The translations under genes and the position numbers were made by a program. From assembly GCA_029879245.1 (NCBI GenBank), contig JAOUQQ010000013.1, positions 1 through 38,418 of the forward strand: a DNA stretch of 38,418 bases. Reading direction: 5' to 3'. Positions 23,617 through 38,130 of this stretch are shown here, piece after piece. The stretch's first letter is position 1; each line of letters opens with the position of its first letter. A model generated the notes under the pieces. That model was not told the DNA's origin. It made no database searches and saw nothing but the letters and a program-made list of their open reading frames with translations. The DNA comes from Chromatiales bacterium (lineage in GTDB: Bacteria > Pseudomonadota > Gammaproteobacteria > Thiohalomonadales > Thiohalomonadaceae).

Positions 23617-24663
23617 TTAGCGTGTGGGGCTGCGCAGAATACTCTCCAGCGTGGTGACGCCATCGAGATTGGCACTCCTGGCAAAGCGATCATCGATCAG
23701 CCCCTCAATACTGTCGTTGCTGATGAGGCCATTCTCCACCATCCTGTCGGCAATATCCTGCATCTCGTCGCTACGCGGAATAAACTTGTCAAAAATTATC
23801 CGGTTTTGCGGGGTATTTAACGCATAGTTAACCAGATCGACATCCTGATTCCAGTAGGATGAGGCGATCGTAGCCGCCTCATCTGAGTTTGCTCTGGCCC
23901 ACATGCCCGAGCGTGCCGCCGCCGAGACAAATTGCTGTACCAGCTCAGGGTCCGACTCAATGAGTGAGTTGTTGACAATGACCAGATTACAGATAAAACC
24001 GGGCCAGACATCTTCCACATAATTCAGCAGTGAGGCATGACCCGACTTGAGCGTCTTGGCTGCAAAGGGCTCGCCCACGTAGTAGGCATCGAGGGAACCC
24101 GCAGCCAACGCAGAGGCCATATCTGGTGGGTTCATCTCAACAATGTTGATCTCGCCCTCTAACTTGTATTTTTTGGCCAACGCCAGTGCGCTCAAGTTGT
24201 GGCCAGAAAAGCGAATAGGTACGGCAATTGTCTTGCCGGCCAACTGAGGAAACTCAGTAATATTCAGATCTTTGCGTGTAACCAGGGTACTCTCATGGCG
24301 GTTGCCAATATAGACCAGCTTCACATCCGCCCCCTGCTGACGCAACACAATGGATAGCGGGGCTATCATAAAAGCGGCATCGATCTGGTTGTTGCGTATC
24401 GACTCTGCCATCTCTGAGAACGATGAATATTTAATCGCCTTGTAGCGCACACCCTCACCCGACATGGTCGCCCGGTCCAGCAGCGGCGCCGCCATATTGG
24501 TGATAACCGGCATATAGCCCATGCGAATTATCTTGCGATCTGTGGTCTCAAAATTGAGGTAGTAGTGTGCAAGGCTGATCAGTAACAGCCAGATTGCAGG
24601 GAGTACAACAATTTTGGTGGCCAGGCTGTGGCTAGCCATCGACCAGAATTTATTACGCAACAT
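23617..24663 (-). CDS. ABC importer substrate-binding protein, membrane-tethered (NMT1/NrtA-SsuA type)
   Basis: A 348-residue periplasmic-binding protein of the NMT1/nitrate-taurine group. RMGYMPVITNMAAPLLDRA begins the binding domain; NQIDAAFMIAPLSIVLRQQG, GKTIAVPIRFSGHN and SLDAYYVGEPFA are typical of the fold. The N-terminal hydrophobic segment (IVVLPAIWLLLISLAHYYL, about 18-37) lacks a clear cleavage site or lipobox, so it probably stays as a membrane anchor. The ligand is unknown: nitrate, sulfonates, thiamine precursors or another small molecule are possible. It overlaps the ATPase gene by 11 bp and is the last gene of the chemosensory-ABC run. Confidence 0.85.
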   Translation of the reverse strand: MLRNKFWSMASHSLATKIVVLPAIWLLLISLAHYYLNFETTDRKIIRMGYMPVITNMAAPLLDRATMSGEGVRYKAIKYSSFSEMAESIRNNQIDAAFMIAPLSIVLRQQGADVKLVYIGNRHESTLVTRKDLNITEFPQLAGKTIAVPIRFSGHNLSALALAKKYKLEGEINIVEMNPPDMASALAAGSLDAYYVGEPFAAKTLKSGHASLLNYVEDVWPGFICNLVIVNNSLIESDPELVQQFVSAAARSGMWARANSDEAATIASSYWNQDVDLVNYALNTPQNRIIFDKFIPRSDEMQDIADRMVENGLISNDSIEGLIDDRFARSANLDGVTTLESILRSPTR

Positions 24664-25447
24664 AACTTACCCCAAGCATCAGGAAGATTTGATCGCGCAG
24701 CTCGCGTAACCCCCTCTCTGTTTCGATATTCCTTGGGCGTGCGTAATCGAGTTTCTCAACCATTTTCACCTTGGCAGGGCGCTCTCCCAGGACAACAATG
24801 CGGTCTGCCATTATCAACGCGTCATCAATGAAGTGTGTCACCATCAGTGTTGTTTTCTGATAGTAGGAGTGCATATTAATCACCTCTTCACGGATCTTGA
24901 GGTGAGTCAGATAATCAAGTCCGGTGAATGGCTCATCCATAAACAGAATATCTGGATTGACCGCCAGGGCACGGGCCAGCTCTGCGCGACGCTGCATACC
25001 GCCTGAGAGCTGATGGGGATAGTGGTACTCAAAACCGGTCAGCTCAACAATATCGATAAACTCATGGATACGGTTGTTCTTCTCCTCCTCGTCCTCAATG
25101 TGGCGAAGACCCAGTTCGACGTTCTCCCACACGGAATACCATGGCAACAGACCATTCTGCTGATATACAAAGATGTTGTCCTGGCTGGGTCCATTGATCT
25201 CTTTGTTATTAATCAGAATTCGACCCGCGCTGGCGTTATCGTGACCGGCAACTATGCGCAACAGAGTAGACTTTCCGGCACCGGAAGGCCCAAGGATACA
25301 GACCATCTCTCCCTCTTCGATCTCAAGATCGATGCCGTCAAGCACACAGATCTGCTTACCAGAGTCAGGGACATCATCGGCACTACGCAGTCGTGAACGG
25401 CGCTCGAAGTAACGTTTTTGCAGATTTTCAATCTTAATCTTGCTCAT
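24653..25447 (-). CDS. ABC importer ATP-binding protein (NrtD/SsuB/TauB type)
   Basis: A 264-residue nucleotide-binding subunit. Walker A is GPSGAGKST, the Q-loop lies in VYQQNGLLPW, the signature is LSGGMQRRAELARAL, Walker B is ILFMDEPF and the H-loop is in MVTHFIDDA. GLLPWYSVWENVELGL is characteristic of the nitrate/taurine group. It lies 11 bp after the permease gene and overlaps the binding-protein gene. About 35 residues before Walker A contain an extra basic stretch (RYFERRSRLRSADDV) not common in the group. Confidence 0.93.
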   Translation of the reverse strand: MSKIKIENLQKRYFERRSRLRSADDVPDSGKQICVLDGIDLEIEEGEMVCILGPSGAGKSTLLRIVAGHDNASAGRILINNKEINGPSQDNIFVYQQNGLLPWYSVWENVELGLRHIEDEEEKNNRIHEFIDIVELTGFEYHYPHQLSGGMQRRAELARALAVNPDILFMDEPFTGLDYLTHLKIREEVINMHSYYQKTTLMVTHFIDDALIMADRIVVLGERPAKVKMVEKLDYARPRNIETERGLRELRDQIFLMLGVSYVA

Positions 25448-25458
25448 TTCCGTCTACC

Positions 25459-26226
25459 TTAAGCGCTCAACTTACGCCACTTGATCTCATCGATCTCGGA
25501 AAAGCGGCGCATAATATAGTCGAGCATCAGTCCAATGATGCCAATGGTCGTCATTCCCACCATTACATAGTCCATACGCAGTGCATTGCGAGAGTCGAGG
25601 ATGAGATAACCCAGGCCTGACTGTACGGCGATCATCTCAGCAGCAACCACCACCAGCCAGGCGATGCCGATCGTCATGCGCAGAGCCGTCACAATATCAG
25701 GAAGAATGGCCGGGAAAATAACCTTGGTAAGCACCTCTCTACGGGAGAAGCCAAAATTAGACGCCACCTGAAAGTAGATCGGCTTAATCGAGTGAACCGC
25801 AATAACGGTCGATGTGACCAGCGGAAAAAAACAGGAGAGGAAGATTAAAAATACCGCGGGTTTCTCGCCTATACCAAACCAGAGCATCGCCAGCGGGATC
25901 CATGCAAGCGGAGAGATAGGACGCAAAAACTGGATCAGCGGATTGATGAATTTGCTCAAACGCACCATACGCCCCAGCACAATCCCGAGCGGGATACCAA
26001 TCAGAACCGCAAGGTCAAAGCCTACAGTAACGCGATAGAGACTTGCGACCGAATCACGTATCAACTTGCCACTGGTGATAAGCTCAATCGCACCCTGCCC
26101 TACCATTGAGGGTCCGGGAAAGACCTGTGCACTCCAACCGGTGAGACGTGAAGCCACCTCCCACAGGGTCAGAATAACGGCGAATGATATTATGGAGTAT
26201 CCGTAACGGGACAATAGTAACTTCAT
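25459..26226 (-). CDS. ABC importer permease (NrtB/SsuC/TauC type)
   Basis: A 255-residue BPD-type inner-membrane permease with about six hydrophobic segments. FPGPSMVGQGAIELITSGKL, SPLAWIPLAMLWFGIGEKPAVFLIF and the coupling segment ASNFGFSRREVLTKVIFPAILPDIVTALRM are split characteristic motifs of the nitrate/sulfonate/bicarbonate group. The ATG lies 3 bp after the parA-like stop, with no ribosome-binding site of its own. Translation is therefore probably coupled to the ParA protein, which ties the transporter to the chemosensory genes. Confidence 0.93.
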   Translation of the reverse strand: MKLLLSRYGYSIISFAVILTLWEVASRLTGWSAQVFPGPSMVGQGAIELITSGKLIRDSVASLYRVTVGFDLAVLIGIPLGIVLGRMVRLSKFINPLIQFLRPISPLAWIPLAMLWFGIGEKPAVFLIFLSCFFPLVTSTVIAVHSIKPIYFQVASNFGFSRREVLTKVIFPAILPDIVTALRMTIGIAWLVVVAAEMIAVQSGLGYLILDSRNALRMDYVMVGMTTIGIIGLMLDYIMRRFSEIDEIKWRKLSA

Positions 26227-26229
26227 ATT

Positions 26230-27189
26230 CTACTTAACATTCAGGGCCAATAGCTCATTGGCCAGGGACATGTACTCCTGAGCAGCCTTACTCTCCTTTT
26301 TGTAGAACAACAGTGGTTTTTGCGTAATATGTGACTCCTGAACCGCCCCATCCATTGTCACGACGGTATCGAGTAGATTTCCGGCGTACTTGGACTTTAG
26401 CTTGTTCAATATCACATTCGCAGCGGTGATCTCCTGATTGTACATGGCCACCAGAACCTTATATTTAAGGCCATGACCACGTTTTTCGTTAATCACCGTT
26501 ATCATGCGTATGATATGTTCAACCCCGTTGAGTGAGAGGTACTCAGATTGGGTGGGGATTATAGCCAAGTCCGAGGCCAAAAGGGAGTTCAGGGTGAAAA
26601 AATCCCCCGAGGGGGGAGTATCTATGATGATATAATCGAATTGAGGTTTCACCTCAATCAGCTTCTCGGCCAGCAGGTACTCAAAATCACCCTGTTGCAT
26701 GTGTTTCTTCGCCAGCAGGGCCATCTTACTGTTTGAGGGGAGTAGCGAGACGTTATAATCTGTACTCAAAATATAGTCTGCAAGCTTTGCATCACTGCTG
26801 CCCATCACATCAAAGAAGGACTTGGCACCATGGTGGTGGAGTAGATTGGTGAGGTTGGCCTGAACGTCAAAGTCAACCAGCAGCACCTTTTTACCCTGTG
26901 CCGCAAGAGATACACCCAGGTTCAAACAGGTGCTGGTTTTGGAAACACCGCCCTTCTGGTTACAGACGGTTACCGTCACACAGGGACTATTATCAACAAT
27001 GGGGCGGCGTACCGGTGCAGACTGACCAGACTGAAGGCCTGCCGCAGCAGCCTCTGGGCTATCTTTTTTGACGACTCGAACAACAAAGACATTTTTACAC
27101 TTTACACAGCGCACCTTTGGATCTGGCTTGGTAAAGCGATCCTTGTCGATGTTATATCTTGTCCCGCACTTCGGGCATGTAATAATCAT
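26230..27189 (-). CDS. ParA-family ATPase with N-terminal zinc ribbon
   Basis: A 319-residue fusion. Residues 1-40 form a zinc-ribbon of the MJ0042 type, with CPKC at 5-8 and CVKC at 28-31. A linker of about 28 residues follows, then a ParA/MinD-type ATPase with the deviant Walker A KGGVSKTS at 79-86, Walker A' VLLVDFDVQANLT and Walker B YIIIDTPPS. Such ATPases position chemosensory arrays in Vibrio (ParC) and Rhodobacter (PpfA), so positioning of this array is the likely role. It follows the cheB-like gene by 30 bp and precedes the ABC permease by 3 bp. The zinc ribbon is unusual on a ParA and may mediate protein or nucleic-acid contacts. Confidence 0.88.
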   Translation of the reverse strand: MIITCPKCGTRYNIDKDRFTKPDPKVRCVKCKNVFVVRVVKKDSPEAAAAGLQSGQSAPVRRPIVDNSPCVTVTVCNQKGGVSKTSTCLNLGVSLAAQGKKVLLVDFDVQANLTNLLHHHGAKSFFDVMGSSDAKLADYILSTDYNVSLLPSNSKMALLAKKHMQQGDFEYLLAEKLIEVKPQFDYIIIDTPPSGDFFTLNSLLASDLAIIPTQSEYLSLNGVEHIIRMITVINEKRGHGLKYKVLVAMYNQEITAANVILNKLKSKYAGNLLDTVVTMDGAVQESHITQKPLLFYKKESKAAQEYMSLANELLALNVK

Positions 27190-27219: not shown

Positions 27220-28281
27220 TCAGGCCACCCCACTTCCTGCTGACTGTTTAACCACATCGATCAGATGAGATGCCAGGTCACTAACTGTAACTATCCTGTC
27301 GACAACGCCACTTTCAATCGCACACTGAGTAAGATTGGGATAGACACAGGTACTGGTCTCCTGCGCAAGGGTAACCCCCCCCAGACGCTGGATCTCGGCA
27401 AAACCCTCTTTTCCGTCGTCACCATGTCCGGTCATCAAAACACCAACCGTATGCCCTTCGAATAACTCTGCCGCAGTACTGAATAAGGTATTAAGTGGCG
27501 CCTGCGAAGACTCACCCTGACGCAACATCGGTTCGTTGTTTTCATTAACATCAACCACCATCGGTACACGTGTTGAGCAGATATAACAGGTTCCCTGTTG
27601 CAGTACGATGTCCCCAATCCCCTCTTCAATTTTCCATGAGGAGAACTGATCAAACTGATTAACAAATTCCGGGATAATCTTCGGCTGAATATCCTGCATC
27701 GCCACGATTGCAGCAGGAATGTCCTGAGGAAGTGATGAGAGTAAACGTATAATTGAACCAGGGCCACCAAGCGTGGTGCCAATCGAGATCAGATAATCGA
27801 GTGACTGATACTGGTAACGGCTACCCAGATTTTCACGCGAATCAACCTTATGCAACTTAACTCGATGGACGTTTTCAAGCTTAATTGATGATGCCAGCTT
27901 TACCCTATCCACCAACTCTGTACGCTGTGTATGGATGTCGGTCGAGATCGCCCCGGATGGTTTCGGCAGAAAATCGACCACACCAAGACGTAGCGCCTCA
28001 AAGGTAATATCACCGTGTGCAAACAGCGAACTGAGCATCACGATAGGTACCGGACACTCGATCATGATGTGGCGCACAGCCTGGATACCGTCCATCACAG
28101 GCATATCGACATCAAGCGTTATCACATCAGGTTTTAACTTTTTAATCTTCTCTACCGCATCCTTTCCGTTACGTGCACTACCGATCACCTCAATCTCATG
28201 ATCGGAATCGAGAATGTCACGCAACGCCTTAACCATAAAGGTGGCGTCATCTACGATGAGAACTTTGATCTTGTTATCCAT
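27220..28281 (-). CDS. CheB-like response regulator with degenerate methylesterase domain (copy 1)
   Basis: A 353-residue REC plus CheB-type protein. The receiver is complete: acidic pocket VDD, phospho-acceptor Asp57 in ITLDVDMP, and Lys107 in LPKPSG. In the CheB domain the nucleophile motif GASTGG reads GTTLGG, placing Thr170 where Ser164 of Salmonella CheB lies. The catalytic His of TQHMP reads Asp197 in MQDIQ. Only the third residue, Asp289 in MTGHGDDG, remains. Methylesterase activity is therefore unlikely unless Thr can substitute, and deamidase activity would be lost as well. It lies 15 bp after cheA. It may act as a phosphorylation-dependent binding or output protein. Confidence 0.88.
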   Translation of the reverse strand: MDNKIKVLIVDDATFMVKALRDILDSDHEIEVIGSARNGKDAVEKIKKLKPDVITLDVDMPVMDGIQAVRHIMIECPVPIVMLSSLFAHGDITFEALRLGVVDFLPKPSGAISTDIHTQRTELVDRVKLASSIKLENVHRVKLHKVDSRENLGSRYQYQSLDYLISIGTTLGGPGSIIRLLSSLPQDIPAAIVAMQDIQPKIIPEFVNQFDQFSSWKIEEGIGDIVLQQGTCYICSTRVPMVVDVNENNEPMLRQGESSQAPLNTLFSTAAELFEGHTVGVLMTGHGDDGKEGFAEIQRLGGVTLAQETSTCVYPNLTQCAIESGVVDRIVTVSDLASHLIDVVKQSAGSGVA

Positions 28282-28295
28282 AATAAAATTCAGGC

Positions 28296-31200
28296 TTATT
28301 GCCTACCCTCATCAATGGCGGCGGCAGGTTTAGATAACCCTTTTCTTCTAATCTTCGACTTCAACAGCTGCGTCTGCTCACGCTGCTTCTTCGCCTGCTT
28401 GTTGGCGGTCATCCGCACCATCTCGTAGACATCGAGAATCAGTGAGATACGACCATCACCGATAATCGTTGCACCAGAGAATCCACTCTTATCCTGTACA
28501 TAATCTGCCAGCGGCTTGATTACCACCTCTTCCTGACCAAGTAGCTCATCAACAACAAATCCGGTACGGGTTCCGCCCACACTCACAATTACAACAAATG
28601 ACTTATCGCCCTGTTTGTATGATGACTGGCCAAACAGGGTAGAGAGGCGGAAGATCGGCAGTGTCTGACCACGTAGATGGATCACCTCTACCCCCTCTAC
28701 GGTCGATGTCTCATCCTTGAAGATACGCACCGTTTCATCTACGTTGGCAAGCGGGATGGTAAAGAGCTCACCACCTACACGAACCATCAACGCGTGAATG
28801 ATCGCCAGTGTCAGCGGAATCTTCAGTCGCATCTGTGTACCCACGCCAACCTTGGAGTCGATCTCCAGGGTTCCGTTGAGTTTCTCAATATTCTTCTTCA
28901 CAACATCCATGCCGACGCCTCGTCCGGAGGTACCGGTGATCTTATCTGCGGTGGAAAAACCAGCAGTCATAATCAGACCAATGATCTCATCATTACTGAA
29001 GCGCTCCATCTCCTCTGCGCTAAAGAGTCCCTTATCGATCGCCTTCTGCCGTACCCTTACCGGGTCGATCCCCTTACCGTCATCGGTAACTTCGATAACA
29101 ATGTGGTTACTCTCCTGATATGCCTCAAGTACCAGAGTACCCTCCGCACTCTTGCCTTTCTCACGACGCTCAGACTCTGTCTCCAGTCCGTGATCGACGG
29201 CATTGCGGATTATATGGATCAGCGGATCAGAGAGTTCTTCTACGATCATGCGATCAAGTTCGGTATCCTCACCCTTGACGACGAGATTGACACTCTTCTC
29301 AATGTTGCGTGTCAGGTCATGCACCAGCCGTGGATAGCGATTAAAGATCTGCGAGATGGGTAGCATACGCATCTTCATCACCCCTTCCTGCAGGTCATTG
29401 GAGGTGCGACCTAGCGAGGCGATCGCCTCACCCAGACGGTAGGTAAAGGTACGTAGCATCTTCACCTCTTTCTGCTCCAGACCCAGCGTGTCTTTAAGGT
29501 GACGTTGCAGATTACGCATCTCGGTTATCAGCTGGTAGAAGTAGGAGCGATCCACAACCAGCTCACCGACCTGATTCATCAGGGTATCGATCTTGTCGGC
29601 GTCTACACGTACGCTCTTCCTGATCTTGGCCTCGGCAGACTCTTTTTTCTTCGCCTCTGTTGCAGCAGCAGCTTTTTCACGCTTCTGTGGCTTCTTGATC
29701 GCCTCAGGTTGCTCCACCGCCTTTGCCTTGTCACCTTTATCACCTGAGACCAGTTCATCAAAGATCTGATTTAATGTATCAAACTCGTCTTTAGTCCCCC
29801 TGGGCATGGAACTCTCGAGGGCCCCTGCAAGGCTGTTGAACAACTGCTCATCAAAGGCGGCGCTTTTCTGTACCGCAGCGGCGCGATCACCTGAAGCCAT
29901 CTTTGCCAGGGTATCTTCAAGACCTCCCTCAACCGGCTCATTGACCACCACCTTGATCGTGACCTCATCAGCACCCAATTCAGGTGCCTGACCAGAGCGC
30001 ATCTGCGGGAACAGTACGGCCAACTCATCCAGGTTATGCTGCATAAAGGCGAGTGAGGTATCTATCCCCATCCGCAATTCATCGCCGGCCTTTTCAATTT
30101 CGTTGAGCCAGATCCGGTAACGCTGTACCAGCTCCACATAATCCATGTAGTTTGCAGAGGAGGTCATCTTCTCAACGATGGCCATACACTGCGACAGGAT
30201 TTCAACCTTATCCGCACCTGCGGCCATATCCTGTAGCTGTGATACGATCTCGTTGTACTGCTCCTGCATGTGAGCAATAAAGATCTCAAACAGCTCCTTA
30301 TCATCCTCCTCCTGATAGAGGGCCTGCGAAACAGTCACAGCAGGTGACACATCACCTCGAGCCGCATTCGCATTATCAAGTTGTGGAGCCACATCGGCTG
30401 AACTTTCTCCATCATCACCCGAGAGTATTGCCTGCAGCTCATCAATCAGATCCTGAATATCTGACTGTTCGTGTTGAGAGCGCTTCAGCTCTTCATTGAG
30501 TGTATTAATACGATCACGTGCAGAGATCAGCGTCTCAATGATCTCAAAACTGGACTCCATTTTTCCGCTACGAAGGAGGTCGAGCAGATCCTCAAGACGG
30601 TGAGCGAGCTGTGAAATCTTATCGAGCCCGATATACTGCGCCCCACCCTTAATCGTATGGATGGGGCGAAAGATATCATTCAACAGATTGAGATCATCGG
30701 GTTGCTGCATTAACTGCAACAGCATCGACTCCATCTCTGCCAGGTGTTCGTCGGCCTCGATTACAAAATCGGGTAGTAGTGACAGGTCAACATCGCTCGG
30801 TGATGATACAGCAGGAGAGTACTCAGGCTCGGGAGAACTCTTCTCTTCACCACCCATGCCAGCCAATTCGGCAAAGGCCTGGGCAACGGAATCACTTATA
30901 TCGGTGCTCTCCTGCCCCTGCTGTGGAATCGTAGTTGCACTTGAAGTAGAGATATCGATCCCGTTTAGCACGGGGAAGAGTTCACGTAACTCCAGCACAT
31001 TTGCGACTAGTGATTCAAGTTCTAAGGCGTCTCCTGCACGGGCACGTGATAGCGCCGCATCAAGGTCACTGAGCCATATCTTGTACCGATGCACCAACTC
31101 AACATAGTCCATGTAGTTGGCGGATGAGCGCATTGATTCGACAACGCCAATCGCTTTCTCTAGTAGTGTGGCTGCATCTCCATCAGCCGTAGTGAGCTGT

Positions 31201-31760
31201 GACAGTAGCGATGCGAGATCGGCATAGTTTTCGGTAAGGTGTAGCTCGAATATCTCATAGAGCTCCCTGTCTTCATCCGACTCATAGGGAGAAGAGACAG
31301 TATCAGAGACTGGAGGCGGGTCTACTCGCTGTACCGTTGAGGTATTCCCCTCATCCTGATCGCCACCATCGCTCTCACCATCAATCCAGAGCGCAAGGCG
31401 ATCTACCAGCTCTTCAACATCTGATTGCTCGGTCTGGGTTGCCTCAAGCTCACTTACGAGGAGTTTAATTCGGTCAGCTGCGCTAATCAGGGTTTCAACA
31501 ATTTGCGCGTTGGAGACCATACGCCCTGCGCGCAGCAGATCCAGCAGGTCTTCAAGACGATGAGAGAGCTGAGAGATTTTTTCCAGGCCAATGTATTGCG
31601 CGCCACCCTTTATCGTATGGATGGGGCGAAAAATATCGTTAAGTACCTCCAGATCATCAGGCTGTTGCACCAGACGAAGCAACATAGCCTCCATCTCTTC
31701 GAGGTGTTCTTCAGCCTCGACGATAAAGTCCGGCAGTAGTGACAAATCGATATTACTCAT
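28296..31760 (-). CDS. cheA: CheA-type histidine kinase with duplicated Hpt / pseudo-Hpt module
   Basis: A 1154-residue chemotaxis kinase. The start at 31760 was chosen because AGGGA lies six bases before it; the ATG two codons earlier touches that site. Numbering uses this start. Two copies of a 320-residue module occupy about 1-300 and 320-590. Each has an Hpt with HTIKGGAQYIGL (His48, His368) and a second helical bundle in which the matching position is Glu (Glu208, Glu530) before S-x-x-S-S-A-N-Y. After a Lys/Ala-rich linker come the dimerisation domain (MNQVGELVVDRS), the ATPase domain (HIIRNAVDHG, DDGKGID, GRGVGMDVV) and a CheW-like domain from about 990. No clear P2 is seen. Confidence 0.94.
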   Translation of the reverse strand: MSNIDLSLLPDFIVEAEEHLEEMEAMLLRLVQQPDDLEVLNDIFRPIHTIKGGAQYIGLEKISQLSHRLEDLLDLLRAGRMVSNAQIVETLISAADRIKLLVSELEATQTEQSDVEELVDRLALWIDGESDGGDQDEGNTSTVQRVDPPPVSDTVSSPYESDEDRELYEIFELHLTENYADLASLLSQLTTADGDAATLLEKAIGVVESMRSSANYMDYVELVHRYKIWLSDLDAALSRARAGDALELESLVANVLELRELFPVLNGIDISTSSATTIPQQGQESTDISDSVAQAFAELAGMGGEEKSSPEPEYSPAVSSPSDVDLSLLPDFVIEADEHLAEMESMLLQLMQQPDDLNLLNDIFRPIHTIKGGAQYIGLDKISQLAHRLEDLLDLLRSGKMESSFEIIETLISARDRINTLNEELKRSQHEQSDIQDLIDELQAILSGDDGESSADVAPQLDNANAARGDVSPAVTVSQALYQEEDDKELFEIFIAHMQEQYNEIVSQLQDMAAGADKVEILSQCMAIVEKMTSSANYMDYVELVQRYRIWLNEIEKAGDELRMGIDTSLAFMQHNLDELAVLFPQMRSGQAPELGADEVTIKVVVNEPVEGGLEDTLAKMASGDRAAAVQKSAAFDEQLFNSLAGALESSMPRGTKDEFDTLNQIFDELVSGDKGDKAKAVEQPEAIKKPQKREKAAAATEAKKKESAEAKIRKSVRVDADKIDTLMNQVGELVVDRSYFYQLITEMRNLQRHLKDTLGLEQKEVKMLRTFTYRLGEAIASLGRTSNDLQEGVMKMRMLPISQIFNRYPRLVHDLTRNIEKSVNLVVKGEDTELDRMIVEELSDPLIHIIRNAVDHGLETESERREKGKSAEGTLVLEAYQESNHIVIEVTDDGKGIDPVRVRQKAIDKGLFSAEEMERFSNDEIIGLIMTAGFSTADKITGTSGRGVGMDVVKKNIEKLNGTLEIDSKVGVGTQMRLKIPLTLAIIHALMVRVGGELFTIPLANVDETVRIFKDETSTVEGVEVIHLRGQTLPIFRLSTLFGQSSYKQGDKSFVVIVSVGGTRTGFVVDELLGQEEVVIKPLADYVQDKSGFSGATIIGDGRISLILDVYEMVRMTANKQAKKQREQTQLLKSKIRRKGLSKPAAAIDEGRQ
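30423..30788 (-). repeat. Second copy of the cheA Hpt-encoding repeat
   Basis: This stretch matches 31383-31748 at a distance of exactly 960 bp (320 codons). For instance ATGGGGCGAA recurs at 30661 and 31621. Divergence at third positions shows that the duplication is old. Confidence 0.85.
31383..31748 (-). repeat. First copy of the cheA Hpt-encoding repeat
   Basis: Partner of the repeat at 30423-30788. The duplication includes the following pseudo-Hpt domain too, which is more diverged between copies but shares the SSANYMDYVELV core. Confidence 0.85.
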
Positions 31761-31852
31761 AACCATTCCCTATCCGGTCAGTGGTTCCGTTCATATTGTT
31801 GTACATTCCCTGTATTACTCTGTATGCAACAGAAAAATTCATGAAATGAACA

Positions 31853-32200
31853 TCAATTGAGGAGATCGAGGATCTCATTCGACTTATGTTTATTGACCAG
31901 GCCAATGACACCCAGACTTACAGCCCTGTCGCGATATTTTTCTTCATTAAGATTGGAGAGGATGAGGATTTGTGCATCAGGATCGATAGCCAGGATCTCC
32001 TGCGCCGCAGTAAAGCCATCCATTCCACGCATCGTAATGTCCATTGTCACCACATCGGGCTTGAGGCTCTTATACATCTCAATCGCCTCGGCACCATCAC
32101 ACGCCTCGCCGACGATGGTGTGACCCGCATTGGTCAACTCCTTGATGATGATCTTGCGCATCATCGCCGAGTCTTCAACTATCAGAACATTTTTTCCCAT
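31853..32200 (-). CDS. cheY: CheY-like single-domain response regulator
   Basis: A 115-residue stand-alone receiver domain that should take phosphate from CheA. The acidic pair is in IVEDSAMMRK, the phospho-acceptor is in VTMDITMRGMDG, the switch serine is in ILILSNL and the conserved lysine is in LVNKHKSN. The last motif has His where Pro usually follows the Lys. No output domain is attached. An in-frame GTG lies just before the ATG at 32200; the ATG fits the family. It lies 23 bp after cheW, and 92 bp without a recognisable signal separate it from cheA. Confidence 0.92.
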   Translation of the reverse strand: MGKNVLIVEDSAMMRKIIIKELTNAGHTIVGEACDGAEAIEMYKSLKPDVVTMDITMRGMDGFTAAQEILAIDPDAQILILSNLNEEKYRDRAVSLGVIGLVNKHKSNEILDLLN

Positions 32201-32223
32201 CACTCAATCTCGGTAGATAGCAT

Positions 32224-32769
32224 CTAATCAACGACAACCATGGTCTCATCCAGCACCATCTCAGTATTCTCCAGGTCACGTAGCATGTTGTATTCATCGT
32301 TAAACAGGACACGGGAGAAGTTGAGGATTACCAGCAGGTGCTGATCCAGCTCACATACGCCCTGTATATATTGACTCTCCAGTCCGGAGATCACGATCTC
32401 GGGGGGCGGCTGCACACTGTCCTCCGATACCTTGATAACGTGTGTTACCTGATCGACGATAAAGCCCACCACCCGGTCACTGATATTCAGAATCAGGATC
32501 CACGCGCGCCTACCCGCACTCTCTTCAGTGTAAAGATAGAGTCGTTTTCGCAGGTCGACGACCGGAATGATATTACCGCGCAGATTGATTACACCCTCAA
32601 CAAACTCGGGTGAGTTGGGTACCGCGGTAATCGTAGCGGAGCGAATAATCTCCTGCACGATAAGGATATCAACACCAAAAGACTCGTCGCCAATATCGAA
32701 GCCGACGAGCTGAAGCATGCCCTCGTCTTCGTTATCATCCGCCTTGTCAAACCCGATTCTTTCCGCCAT
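32224..32769 (-). CDS. cheW: CheW coupling protein
   Basis: A 181-residue scaffold protein linking receptors to CheA. LQLVGFDIGDESFGVDILIVQEIIR, VEGVINLRGNIIPVVDLRKRL and VGFIVDQVTHVIKV follow the CheW two-subdomain fold. An acidic N-terminal tail of about 17 residues and a C-terminal extension of about 20 residues (MVLDETMVVVD) are additions. The ATG has an AGGGGAT site upstream. It lies 76 bp after the receptor gene, and that gap contains a hairpin. Confidence 0.94.
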   Translation of the reverse strand: MAERIGFDKADDNEDEGMLQLVGFDIGDESFGVDILIVQEIIRSATITAVPNSPEFVEGVINLRGNIIPVVDLRKRLYLYTEESAGRRAWILILNISDRVVGFIVDQVTHVIKVSEDSVQPPPEIVISGLESQYIQGVCELDQHLLVILNFSRVLFNDEYNMLRDLENTEMVLDETMVVVD

Positions 32770-32812
32770 AACACTATCCCCTGATAGAGGTACCGTTCAT
32801 CCATATGTAGAT

Positions 32813-32835
32813 GGGGTCGGCAAGCGCCGAACCCC
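32813..32835 (-). other. Hairpin between receptor and cheW genes
   Basis: GGGGT-CGGC pairs with GCCG-ACCCC around an AAGC loop, with one bulged A. No T run follows. It may stabilise the upstream message or partly uncouple cheW expression. Confidence 0.4.
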
Positions 32836-32845
32836 ACCGCAACTG

Positions 32846-35800
32846 TTAGATCTTGAACTGCTGTACCTGTTCAGTAAGGTTTGCAGACTGCTTCTGCAGA
32901 TCCTCGGTTACACTTACTACCACACCCGCACCCTCCACGGTCTGTGATGCGGCCTCCGCGGTCTCGGCCGAGATGGCCGTTACCTTCTGAGAACGGGTCG
33001 CCTGTTCACCGGTCAGGACGTTCATGTCGGTGGAGCGCTGTACCACACCCTCCATCTGTTTGTTGATCTCCTGTACGCTGGCATTGGCCTCGTTAACCAG
33101 ACCGGTGATCTCCTTGGAGAACTCTACCACCTTGTCGAGCGCCTGCTGCGCAGCGACACGACGTTGGCCCTGCTCACCCGCCATACCCCCGATCTCTCCG
33201 GCCAGTACGTTCAGTTCCTGAATCAGGTTCTGTACCTGTCCGGTGGCATCGTTCAGGGTTTGCGCCGATTTCGCGATACCCTCGATCGCCTGCATGTTGA
33301 CTCGACCACCTTCGTCGATTCGCTGCAGTGCCTGTTGTGACATGTCGGAGAGGCGTACCCCCTCGGCTACGCCGGCACTCGAGTCCTTGATGAGCTGGGT
33401 GATCTCCTTGGCAGCCTCAGAGGAGCGCTGTGCCAGTTTACCTACCTCGTCCGCAACCACCGCGAAACCCTTACCGTGCGCACCGGCACGGGCCGCCTCT
33501 ACCGCCGCGTTAAGGGCGAGGAGGTTGGTCTGCTCCGCAATCTCGGTGATTACGTCGATGATTTCAGAGATCTGTTCAGAGGATTCAGAGATGGAGCGCA
33601 TACCATCTACCGTTGCCGCTACTGAGCGGGCTCCCTCCTCAGCGGCCTGCAGTGAGGAGCGTCCATATTCGGTCGCCTGGTTTACCGCACTCTGCATCTG
33701 CGATACCGAGCTCACCATCTCCTGGATAGATTCGGTTACACGCTGCACCATCTGCTCCTGTGACTGGGCGGAGGCCACAACCTTCGCACCGGTCTCACCC
33801 ATCTCGCCTACACGAGCAAGGGTTGACTGTACCTCGGCGTCAGATGATACGGCAGTGGCCGATACCTGCTGCATTTTCTTAAGCAGCTCGGCAATTCGGG
33901 CCTGAGAGGCCTGCGCCGCCTCGGCCTGGTCACCGGTCGCCTTTCTTACCTTACCCGCCGTTTGACCCATCTCACCGATTACCTGAGAGGCCTCCTGGGC
34001 ACGGGCATACTGTTGCTGCGCACGGTTTCTGTTACCAGATGCACGTTTCGCTACGTCACCCGCACTGGCGTCCACCGCAATCGCCGCCTGGCTTACAACG
34101 CCGAAGGCGTCGTGAATCACTCGAAGCATGTTGTTAAGTGAGCCCGACATGGTACCGATCTCATCGCCACTCTCTACCGGTACCGAGAGGGTGAGGTCAC
34201 GCTCGTTCGCGATTCGGGTTACGATGTTCGCCATGTGGATGATCGGGTTCGCTATCTGGCCGGCAACCAGGTAGGCGATGATGATTACCGCGATGATTAC
34301 CACAACCGCGAGTGTCGCCGCTATGATCTGTTGCTGGCGTACTACAGCCAACGCCTCAGACTCATCGATCTCCGCGATGATTACCCAGTCAAAGTCGGTA
34401 TTCATCTCCTCATCCAGACCGACGTGCGACCAGGAGCTGAGTACCGGTGTGCCACGATAGTCGTCGATGATCTCGGTACCGGCGGTGTTGGTAATACCCA
34501 CCTCTACCGCTTTGGTATCTACCTTCTGCTCCAGAATGGTGTTGGCCTTAAAGCGCGACTCGGAACGCATCAGCTTGTCCCAGCCGACCAGATAGGTCTC
34601 ACCGGAGTTACCCAGACCGGTACGCTCCTGCATAACTTCGTCAATGTCACCGGTGGAGAGCTGTACCGCCAGCACCAGCGCCACCTTGTTATCCACGATT
34701 ACAGGCTGTGCGGCGAAGATCGCCGGGGCATCGTTGGAGGGGGCGTACTTTTTGATGTCGGTCAGGCCAAACTCCTTACTGCGCATTACGTCGCGGAAGA
34801 GCTGGCCCAGGTGGGTATCCTTCCACTTGCCGTCGACCAGATTGGTCTGGTAGTCCGCCTCATGGGTTACCGAGTAGAAGACATAGCCATCGGGCGAGAT
34901 GAGGAAGATGTCGTAGGTACCGTAGATCTCCTGATACTTCTGGAAGTAGTCTTTCTCTTCACCCTCGTGCTGTACCTTGAGGATCTCCTCCAGTGCACCG
35001 GTGGTGTGGATCGACCACTTGAGGCCGGGGATATTGATCGGCTGGTAGACCTCAAGCTCATAGACCCCGGTCGAGCCGACCTTATATGCCTCACCCGACT
35101 TACCCTGCTGTGCGGCGGTGATACCGCTACTGCTCTTCTCCTCACCGATCTTTTCCGTTTTAACCACACGGTCACTACGTAGTGATGTCTTGCCTGAGCC
35201 GTCACTACCCACCAGATAGGACTCGAATGTCGATTTCAGGCCCGAGCGTTGCTGAACGGACTCGTTAATGCCCTCACGCGCCAGCTGGAATGCCGCGGCA
35301 CCTATGTACTGACCATCGCTATCGTGCAGCGGAGTAGCAATGAACATCGAATGGTCTTTGGAGGGTTCGTAGTAGGCGAAGTCTTCCAGCACGACCGCTT
35401 CGCCCGCGACAGTACGGGCAAAGGCGCGACCGAGGCCGGAGTTCTTCAGGTTGCCGCGCATCAGGTTGGCACCCAGGTCAGACTCCTTGGTCACGGTGTA
35501 GACCACGTTACCGTCAGAGTCGATGAGAAAGACGTCGTAGAAGTGGAAGTTATCCATAAATACGCGGAAACCCGATTCACGATCCCGACTGAGTTTGCGG
35601 TAGTTTTCAGAGCGTAACCCCTCACGGAACGCCTTGGCGAAGAGCGGCAGACCGGCGGTAAAACGCAGGTTCTGCTTTACGTCGTTGAGGAGGTTGATAC
35701 GGTCAGTGAAGTAGCGCTCCAGATCGTTGCGCTGCAGCGTCTGTATCGCTCGGAGGTTTACGTACGCCTCCTGAGTCAGGGTCGTTGCCGTCTCGTTCAA

Positions 35801-36025
35801 TACCGCAAGGTCAGACTTGGTCTCCTTCATGAAACCGTTGATCTGATTCAGCTTCAGCTGCCGGATAGCGGTAATTTCGTCAAACTTCGACTTTTCCAGC
35901 GCCGCCGCTGACTGGGTAATCATGATTACCGCGCTTACCGCAAAGGGAACCAGACCTACTACCAGGAAGGCCAACATCAGCTTCGAGCGAAGCTTCATGT
36001 TTTTCCACGATACAAGAGCTGCCAT
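32846..36025 (-). CDS. Methyl-accepting chemotaxis-type receptor with two Cache-like regions
   Basis: A 1059-residue inner-membrane receptor. The start at 36025 was chosen because GAGGAG lies seven bases before it; a GTG five codons earlier overlaps that site. TM1 lies at about 14-37 and TM2 at about 566-588. Between them are two Cache-like sensor regions: one with [20 protein letters not shown] (near 164-183) and one with [20 protein letters not shown] (near 372-391). These look like an internal duplication. HAMP follows (about 589-640), then a long coiled coil with the hairpin tip [21 protein letters not shown] (828 onward) that binds CheA/CheW. The C-terminus (QQFKI) lacks a CheR/CheB-tether pentapeptide. 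Ligand unknown. Confidence 0.93.
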
Positions 36026-36082
36026 TGTATTGCTCCTCACTTTTTATAAAACCACCGCCCGACTGGACGGCATATCCATCAA

Positions 36083-36106
36083 CAAAAAAACGATACCAGC
36101 GGTATC
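36083..36106 (-). terminator. Terminator-like hairpin after the second cheB-like gene
   Basis: GATACC-GCT-GGTATC starts two bases after the stop codon, followed by G and seven T on the minus strand. The loop is short (three bases). It would separate the first two genes from the receptor gene, or reduce read-through. I saw no clear promoter between it and the receptor start, apart from TATAAA at about 36046 without a good -35 box. Confidence 0.6.
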
Positions 36107-36107
36107 A

Positions 36108-37166
36108 CTACCCCTGGCGATTACCTAAAAGATCATTCAGTACCGCGGCGATGCGGGAGTCGGACTCAATGTGTCCGACATTTACCCGTGCCATCGCGGC
36201 ATTAATCATGCCCTTACAGAGGGCGGTGTGCTGATCCTGCACGATGGTAGCACCACCCACCCGCTCGATCTCATCGAGCCCCTCAAAACCGTCACTGCCA
36301 CACCCTGAGAGGATAACACCGTAGCTCTCATCCTCCATCACCTCAGCGGTGGAGAAGAACATCATATCTATCGAGCCCTTGCGCGAGGCAAAGGGTGCCG
36401 GGCTTACGTGTAGCACCGGGTCACTCTCATAACGGTGCAGTGTCATGTAGTTGACCCCGGAGTTAAGGTAACAGACACCGGGGCGTACTACCTCATCATG
36501 CTCCCCCACCTTAACCTGCAGCTCACCGTAGCTGTTGAGGTAACGGGCAAAGGCATTAACATGGTGCGGCGCGGCGTAGAGGGTGACCAGATAGGCGGTC
36601 TCACTGTCGGGGCGCAGGTGGGGAATAATCTTGAGCAGGGCACCGTAGCCCCCCTCTGCCGCACCAATGGCAACCACCCGCTTTGCCACCGTTCCACTAC
36701 CAGGCTGCGACCCTGCAGCGGCTACGCCATTCTTACGGCGGATATATTTAATTGCCCCCACCTCGACCTGGCTGGCAAACTCGATCTTGCTGAGAATATC
36801 GGCCGCCTGCTCATCCAGCGCCCCTTCACTCTCAATGGCCGAAGGCTTGGAGATAATGTCGACCGCGCCAAAACGCAAGGCATCGAAGGTGATGGCCGCC
36901 CCCTCTTTGGTCAGGCTGCTGAGCATCACCACCGGGGTGGGGTGTTTAATCATCAGGTGTTTGAGTGCGCTCAGACCATCCATACCCGGCATACTGATAT
37001 CCATGGTGATGACATCGGGCTTGAGTTGCGATATTTGATAGAGCGCCTCGATACCATTCTCTGCCTGACCAACGATCTCGACAGACTCCTCATCTGCGAA
37101 CAGGTCGAGGATGGTCTTTCGCACCAGTGGTGAATCATCAACTATCAGTAGCCTTTGCCGTTTCAT
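36108..37166 (-). CDS. CheB-like response regulator with degenerate methylesterase domain (copy 2)
   Basis: A 352-residue REC plus CheB-type protein. The receiver is intact (VDD, Asp56 in ITMDISMP, Lys107 in ISKPSA). In the CheB domain the nucleophile motif reads GAAEGG, so the catalytic Ser is Ala170. The His of TQHMP aligns to Tyr197 in TLYAAP. Asp292 in LSGCGSDG remains. A Ser-to-Ala change should abolish hydrolysis, so this is a likely pseudo-enzyme. It lies 74 bp after the REC gene and just before a terminator. No strong ribosome-binding site precedes the ATG. It shares little more than fold motifs with the other cheB-like gene, so the two losses may be independent. Confidence 0.88.
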   Translation of the reverse strand: MKRQRLLIVDDSPLVRKTILDLFADEESVEIVGQAENGIEALYQISQLKPDVITMDISMPGMDGLSALKHLMIKHPTPVVMLSSLTKEGAAITFDALRFGAVDIISKPSAIESEGALDEQAADILSKIEFASQVEVGAIKYIRRKNGVAAAGSQPGSGTVAKRVVAIGAAEGGYGALLKIIPHLRPDSETAYLVTLYAAPHHVNAFARYLNSYGELQVKVGEHDEVVRPGVCYLNSGVNYMTLHRYESDPVLHVSPAPFASRKGSIDMMFFSTAEVMEDESYGVILSGCGSDGFEGLDEIERVGGATIVQDQHTALCKGMINAAMARVNVGHIESDSRIAAVLNDLLGNRQG

Positions 37167-37240: not shown

Positions 37241-37990
37241 CTAACTTAAATACTTTTTCAACTTTTCCAGCAATATTTCGTTCTTGAAGGGCTTGGTAAC
37301 GTACTCATCACTGCCCGACATTCTCCCCTTCAATTTGTCCACCAGTGAATCACGCGAGGTGAGTATGATCACAGGCACCTTGGCGGTGCGGGCATCATCT
37401 TTCATCTGGTGGAAGATCTGGTAGCCGTCGATATCGGGCAGGATGAGATCAAGGATCACCAGGTCTGGCACCTGTACCGCCAGTTGCGCCAGGGCGGTCT
37501 TACCATTCTCTGCCTCAATTACTGCGTAGCCATAATCCTGTAGAAATTTGCACAGCACGATACGGGCAACGCGGCTGTCCTCCACCACCAGGATCTTCTT
37601 CTTGCCAGCATCCGCTGACCTGGGGGTAGGGGTAGGTGTCGCCTGCACCCTGGCCTTTGCCGGGGCATCGGCATCACGTTCAAACATGCGGAACAGGGTC
37701 TGCCCATAGGAGAGAGCGGTCTGCTTGCTGGCCGCAGCCCTGACCTCATCGGTCTGCCCCTCTTTGAAAAAGTATTTGGCCTCGGGGACACGTCTGATCA
37801 GCGGCAGGGCACCTGTCCCCTGTACCGACTTGTAGACCACATCGACCACATCGCCACAATCGAGCACCAGCACCCCACCATCCCCACTCTGCGTCATAAA
37901 GTAGAGAGAGCCGGTCTTGGTATCGGCCTCCAGCTGCTTGACCTGCTGGACGATATGAGACATTGGAACGAAGGCGGCGGAGTCACTCAT
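37241..37990 (-). CDS. PATAN/DUF4388-like domain plus C-terminal receiver protein
   Basis: A 249-residue protein. Residues 1 to about 100 look like a PATAN/DUF4388-type domain (KTGSLYFMTQSGDGGVLVL, then GTGALPLIRRV and KYFFKEG). After a Pro/Thr linker comes a receiver with VVEDSRVAR, phospho-acceptor in VILDLILPDIDG, LTSRD and TKPF, all conserved. Proteins of this kind occur beside Pil-Chp-like and other chemosensory systems, often in surface motility or polarity control. The ATG at 37990 is preceded by a GGGGGTGGG-type region; the 13 upstream codons are considered non-coding. As the first gene of the cluster it may be an output of CheA. Confidence 0.8.
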   Translation of the reverse strand: MSDSAAFVPMSHIVQQVKQLEADTKTGSLYFMTQSGDGGVLVLDCGDVVDVVYKSVQGTGALPLIRRVPEAKYFFKEGQTDEVRAAASKQTALSYGQTLFRMFERDADAPAKARVQATPTPTPRSADAGKKKILVVEDSRVARIVLCKFLQDYGYAVIEAENGKTALAQLAVQVPDLVILDLILPDIDGYQIFHQMKDDARTAKVPVIILTSRDSLVDKLKGRMSGSDEYVTKPFKNEILLEKLKKYLS

Positions 37991-38130
37991 AGGCCCACCC
38001 CCGCGCTGTATTGCCATTTGCACGGACACTGTTTACCCCTCACCTTGGGTATCCTTCCATTTGTTGCCACATCAGCAGTAAACATAACCATTTGATTTAA
38101 CAGAAAATAACTCCTGTTTTCCCAAAGCTG

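Follow-up and report, generated by a model that had tools for sequence, protein, structure and literature searches.

Chemosensory gene clusters encoding predicted catalytically inactive CheB relatives in Gammaproteobacteria and Desulfobacterota

The window analyzed here is a stretch of 38,418 nucleotides from a Chromatiales bacterium (GCA_029879245.1, JAOUQQ010000013.1), and it corresponds to the entire contig 106 of the source genome (2.7 Mb, 98% complete). It carries a chemosensory gene cluster that encodes two CheB-like proteins, designated as CheB1 and CheB2. Both are related to CheB and, judging from the replacement of their catalytic residues, most likely catalytically dead. The window holds one example of a chemosensory cluster that is conserved in other genomes and whose pseudo-CheBs would be regulated by phosphorylation. 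Methylation and demethylation by CheR and CheB are the textbook memory of bacterial chemotaxis. With conserved CheB-like proteins lacking catalytic residues, and with several genomes in which no CheR was found, the question of how such a pathway adapts becomes directly testable.

Triad residues and fold of CheB1 and CheB2

The first-pass annotation of this DNA had assigned Thr170, Asp197, and Asp289 of CheB1, and Ala170, Tyr197, and Asp292 of CheB2, to the positions of the CheB catalytic triad. Alignment to Salmonella CheB (the sequence of PDB 1a2o; Ser164, His190, and Asp286) confirmed both assignments. The two receiver domains are complete, as had also been claimed, with the phospho-acceptor Asp, the second acidic Asp, Ser, and Lys all present. 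At position 283, where Salmonella CheB has Met, His is observed in CheB1 and Cys in CheB2, and neither is kept among orthologues.

Structures were modeled with AlphaFold based on alignments of orthologues, with a mean predicted local distance difference test (pLDDT) score of 84.6 for CheB1 and 89.0 for CheB2. The CheB1 model shows similarity to Pectobacterium CheB 6ymz with Z 37.0 (root-mean-square deviation, rmsd, 3.1 over 324 residues) and to 1a2o with Z 35.7 (rmsd 3.6 over 332 residues). The corresponding values for the CheB2 model are Z 40.0 (rmsd 2.9 over 332 residues) and Z 39.9 (rmsd 3.0 over 337 residues). No Ser/His pair is seen at the equivalent positions of the models. Since the sequence and structural alignments agree, misalignment was ruled out as the cause of the apparent triad loss. 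According to the models, the CheB fold is retained over nearly the full length in both proteins, while the catalytic residues are lost.

In comparison with the characterized CheB methylesterases/deamidases (Salmonella 1a2o and 1chd; Pectobacterium 6ymz), the domain architecture, the fold (Z 36–40), the phospho-acceptor Asp, and the Asp286 position are alike. Of the features of an active CheB, the receiver and a CheB domain of the right fold are present, and the Ser-His-Asp triad is not. The catalytic Ser and His are replaced in the window copies and never occur together in any orthologue, and unlike the canonical systems, the window cluster has no CheR.

The replacement residues are conserved. 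Among 25 aligned CheB1 proteins, the position of Ser164 is occupied by Thr (15), Ser (7), or Asn (3), that of His190 by Glu (23) or Asp (2), and that of Asp286 by Asp in all. Three further orthologues are of the Thr/Glu/Asp type, so that position 190 is Glu or Asp in 28 of 28. The motif GT(T/S/N)L..P in the CheB1 pocket is also conserved. In 15 CheB2 proteins, Ala (12), His (2), or Ser (1) is found at position 164, and Tyr (13) or His (2) at position 190; none of the 15 has Ser164 and His190 together. Ordinary CheBs aligned in the same way have Ser-His-Asp in 44 of 44 and 50 of 50 cases in two comparison sets (94 in total), the few other entries in the tally being proteins that match through the receiver domain only. 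The substitutions thus exceed what chance would give.

Distribution and phylogeny

Both CheBs were found in one other genome among 95 related ones (G006, from the same family; 55% and 44% identity), where the locus is completely syntenic with the window cluster. Across 84,980 species genomes, CheB1 was found at 49–61% identity in 24 loci, one of which is the same contig as G006. These loci are labeled as Gammaproteobacteria, Methylococcaceae, Chromatiaceae, Competibacter, Desulfobacterales, and cable bacteria (Electronema and Electrothrix). In a profile search, CheB1 was found in five of 369 genomes of the class (about 1%), three of which represent further loci. In all, at least 27 loci in Gammaproteobacteria and Desulfobacterota, cable bacteria among them, hold the cluster in whole or in part. 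CheB1 is absent from the genus-mate of the window organism, and viral contigs contained no relevant relative, with one match restricted to the receiver domain.

The common gene order is regulator, CheB2, chemoreceptor (methyl-accepting chemotaxis protein, MCP), CheW, CheY, CheA, CheB1, ParA, permease, ATPase, and binding protein. Several orthologous loci are truncated at contig ends or lack individual genes. In the genome of locus L095, the CheB1 side of the cluster is present in two copies on opposite strands. Locus L079 is in a record titled Synechococcaceae cyanobacterium SM1_2_3 and yet holds this proteobacterial-type cluster; the record is most likely a mislabeled or mis-binned metagenome-assembled genome (MAG).

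In a maximum-likelihood tree, CheB1 constitutes one group (25 rows; support 100/100) and CheB2 a separate group (15 rows; support 99/97), the first value being the ultrafast bootstrap. The 28 canonical CheBs included are on one side of a branch. Six distant deltaproteobacterial loci carry three CheB-like genes in tandem adjoining CheA. One copy is sister to CheB1, another is sister to CheB2, and the third (DUF4388-receiver-CheB) groups with the third copies of Desulfobacterota loci. None of these copies has both Ser and His at the triad positions, with the alignment being weaker for the distant rows. Because the distant tandem copies group in this way and all lack the pair, the triad loss looks old. 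The tree is unrooted, and thus a single origin of the loss is not proven.

The gene for the third degenerate CheB-like protein of Desulfobacterota lies within the cluster or close to it (L086, L088, L090, L091, L092, L093, L095, L097, L099, and L105). In the proteins scanned, DUF4388 is combined with one or two receiver domains.

Adaptation, output, and alternative explanations

It had been stated that no CheR is present and proposed that the pathway may not adapt by methylation. The former holds for the window and fails for the genome, in which a whole-genome search found three CheRs (contigs 3, 119, and 91); absence of CheR from the window is therefore not absence from the cell. The same genome encodes two CheBs with an intact Ser-His-Asp triad (contigs 3 and 152). 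Contig 3 has a receptor-CheR-CheD-CheB arrangement, and contig 152 a flagellar-type cheYZA-cheB-mot arrangement. Cross-methylation of the window receptor thus has to be allowed for. The proposal on adaptation is indirectly supported by five of 24 carrier genomes, those of loci L080, L082, L087, L096, and L128, in which no CheR was found, while the CheRs and intact CheBs of the window's own genome make cross-talk conceivable. In the genomes of L080, L082, L096, and L128, one or two CheB matches each were found, all of the cluster type, and in those of L082, L087, and L128 the single CheA is the cluster's own.

The window receptor ends with EQVQQFKI and has no pentapeptide for tethering CheR/CheB, as had been noticed from the sequence. 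The receptors of the cluster mostly have a C-terminal arm of 210 residues after the hairpin tip, ending with QFK(I/L), without the pentapeptide. A strict methylation motif is found at the usual positions in none of 18 cluster receptors, and several ordinary receptors also lack it. The tip is AG(A/T/S/V)HG in the cluster receptors (AGAHGKG in the window) versus the usual AGE.G, and the other receptors seen have a shorter arm past the tip.

The conserved loss of the triad suggests a branch of chemotaxis systems that keeps CheBs as parts controlled by phosphorylation, not as enzymes. CheA would be under the control of the double-Cache receptor, possibly assisted by the binding protein of the ABC transporter, and would phosphorylate CheY and both CheB-like proteins. 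Phosphorylation would open the latter, so that their C-terminal domains could bind to the receptor array, or to some other partner, with nothing being hydrolyzed. Instead of hydrolyzing methyl esters, CheB1 and CheB2 may then serve as phosphate sinks or as adaptor or feedback modules. The S164A variant of Salmonella CheB is inactive, and its binding to a receptor without the pentapeptide is unchanged, while its affinity for a pentapeptide-bearing receptor is about 2.5-fold lower (PMC8609364). A CheB can thus lose catalysis and still bind in a phosphorylation-gated manner, and these data and the intact receivers favor a phospho-regulated adaptor or sink role. A more far-reaching version is put forward tentatively: two CheB-derived pseudoenzymes (three in some Desulfobacterota) may replace reversible methylation as the device for adaptation or output, acting as phosphorylated switches that bind the array or a pilus/polarity partner and provide methylation-independent adaptation.

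The output is likely surface motility (type IV pilus or gliding) and not flagella. FliG was found in four of 25 carriers, versus 52 of the 95 genomes of the window's relatives (Fisher p = 0.0006), and PilT was above the cut-off in 24 of 25 carriers. At two of the distant triple-CheB loci (L101:7395-8431 and L103:7885-9964), genes for a Ras/Arf-like GTPase, roadblock proteins, and an HDOD protein adjoin the CheBs/CheA, and the GTPase and roadblock pair may be an MglA/MglB-like arrangement. Since FliG is rare and PilT near-universal in carriers, and such neighbors occur in distant loci, the cluster probably controls surface motility. In cable bacteria, it is a candidate for the system that controls gliding.

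The best reading, somewhat more likely than not, is a chemosensory class whose pseudo-methylesterases are regulated by phosphorylation, and which probably has surface motility as its output and no adaptation by methylation of its own. Several points weigh against it. CheR is encoded elsewhere in the window's genome and in 19 of 24 others, and could methylate this receptor. The carrier genomes are mostly MAGs, and the five CheR-less ones are all MAGs of unstated completeness, so that gene absences may reflect gaps in the assemblies. The strict methylation motif is missing from many ordinary receptors as well, and absence of the pentapeptide is common; the receptor evidence is therefore suggestive only. 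In seven CheB1s, Ser is retained at position 164, which leaves room for residual or altered catalysis. The link to a pilus output is a correlation, with carriers unmatched by lineage to the comparison genomes.

The CheRs of the window's genome and the other carriers, with the two intact CheBs, would fit an explanation in which the pseudo-CheBs are inert and the receptor is methylated and demethylated by enzymes encoded elsewhere. Such cross-talk is considered unlikely, given the five carriers without CheR, in four of which the degenerate cluster type accounts for all CheB homologues, and the longer receptor hairpin, which has AGAHGKG for AGE.GRG at its tip and is without a strict methylation motif in the usual positions. 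Still less probable is a remodeled active site in CheB1 for a new reaction or ligand (Thr/Ser/Asn170, Glu197, and Asp289). The invariant Glu/Asp at position 190 and the conserved pocket motif agree with it, and CheB1 of cable bacteria formally resembles a Ser-Glu-Asp triad, which occurs in sedolisins. However, one common nucleophilic mechanism is unlikely because the nucleophile position is Asn in three orthologues and Thr in most, and CheB2 has no comparable residue set. Recent decay into functionless genes is very improbable. Catalytic residues are lost in both copies, but the frames are intact, receivers and fold are conserved, and the copies form separate clades over two phyla; the conservation of the replacement residues is the reason for rejecting decay. 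The suggestion in the first-pass annotation of retention, not decay, was thus borne out. The role as phospho-regulated scaffolds that was also suggested there would agree with the intact receivers and with the receptor binding of S164A CheB.

Gene content and comparison with known systems

The genes of the cluster are listed in Table 1. MCP, CheW, CheA kinase, and CheY are all encoded, as expected for a CheA-CheW-MCP chemosensory system. The CheY gene was not mentioned in the earlier annotation; in most orthologous loci, the gap between CheW and CheA likewise holds a receiver-only gene. Orthologues of CheA and, at the equivalent position, ParA are also present in most of them, and the ABC permease is conserved at 59–68% identity. 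In CheA, a similar helical segment that lacks the Hpt motif (repeated SSANYMDYVELV) comes after each Hpt domain and may be a pseudo-Hpt domain. The DUF4388/PATAN identity of the N-terminus of the first regulator has weak support (hhalign probability 35%).

Table 1. Genes of the chemosensory cluster and its flank in the window
Feature	Position	Strand	Basis
Response regulator; N-terminal domain weakly DUF4388/PATAN-like, then receiver	37241..38029	-	PF00072
CheB2; receiver + CheB domain, Ala170/Tyr197/Asp292	36108..37166	-	Pfam PF00072 + PF01339, alignment, AF2 model
Chemoreceptor (MCP); double Cache sensor, HAMP, long signaling hairpin	32846..36040	-	Pfam
CheW	32224..32769	-	PF01584
CheY-like single-domain response regulator	31853..32200	-	Open reading frame + motif
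CheA; two Hpt, dimerization, ATPase, CheW-like domains	28296..31766	-	Pfam
CheB1; receiver + CheB domain, Thr170/Asp197/Asp289	27220..28281	-	PF00072 + PF01339, alignment, AF2 model
ParA-type ATPase; N-terminal MJ0042 zinc ribbon	26230..27189	-	PF13614, TIGR02098
ABC transporter permease, NitT/TauT type	25459..26226	-	PF00528
ABC transporter ATPase	24653..25447	-	PF00005; conserved in orthologous loci
NMT1-like substrate-binding protein	23617..24663	-	PF13379/PF09084; conserved in orthologous loci

The cluster is rated as a variant of chemosensory systems, not as a new kind of system. It resembles the Pil-Chp system of type IV pili in its CheA with more than one Hpt and in the presence of PilT in carriers. 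It differs in lacking PilK (CheR), in having a double-Cache receptor instead of PilJ, and in its ParA and ABC transporter genes. The PilG/PilH/PilI/PilJ/PilK set is not found in the cluster, and a separate Pil-Chp-like cluster is present on contig 91. Chemosensory arrays are positioned by ParA-like proteins such as Vibrio ParC/ParP and Rhodobacter PpfA. The ParA-family ATPase beside the che genes is alike, compared at the level of the ParA fold, while the window ParA has an MJ0042 zinc ribbon. Judging from the gene order, the probable role of ParA is to position the array or its partner within the cell, and the ABC transporter may deliver the ligand or be a regulated target. The Myxococcus Dif pathway was described as CheR-independent (PMC2577667); both are thought to work without CheR, while the window cluster retains two receiver-bearing CheB-like proteins. 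No description of this class was found in the open-access literature searched for degenerate, inactive, or pseudoenzyme CheB and for CheB with DUF4388, subscription papers being outside its scope.

Some loci contain additional genes. In a cable bacterium, the cluster is followed downstream by a PilZ-domain gene (L099:14784-15227), and in a gammaproteobacterium by a hemerythrin-domain gene (L089:14791-15225). In Desulfobacterota clusters, a gene for a HAMP-domain protein is located between CheY and CheA (L099:5373-6086 and L097:4609-5340).

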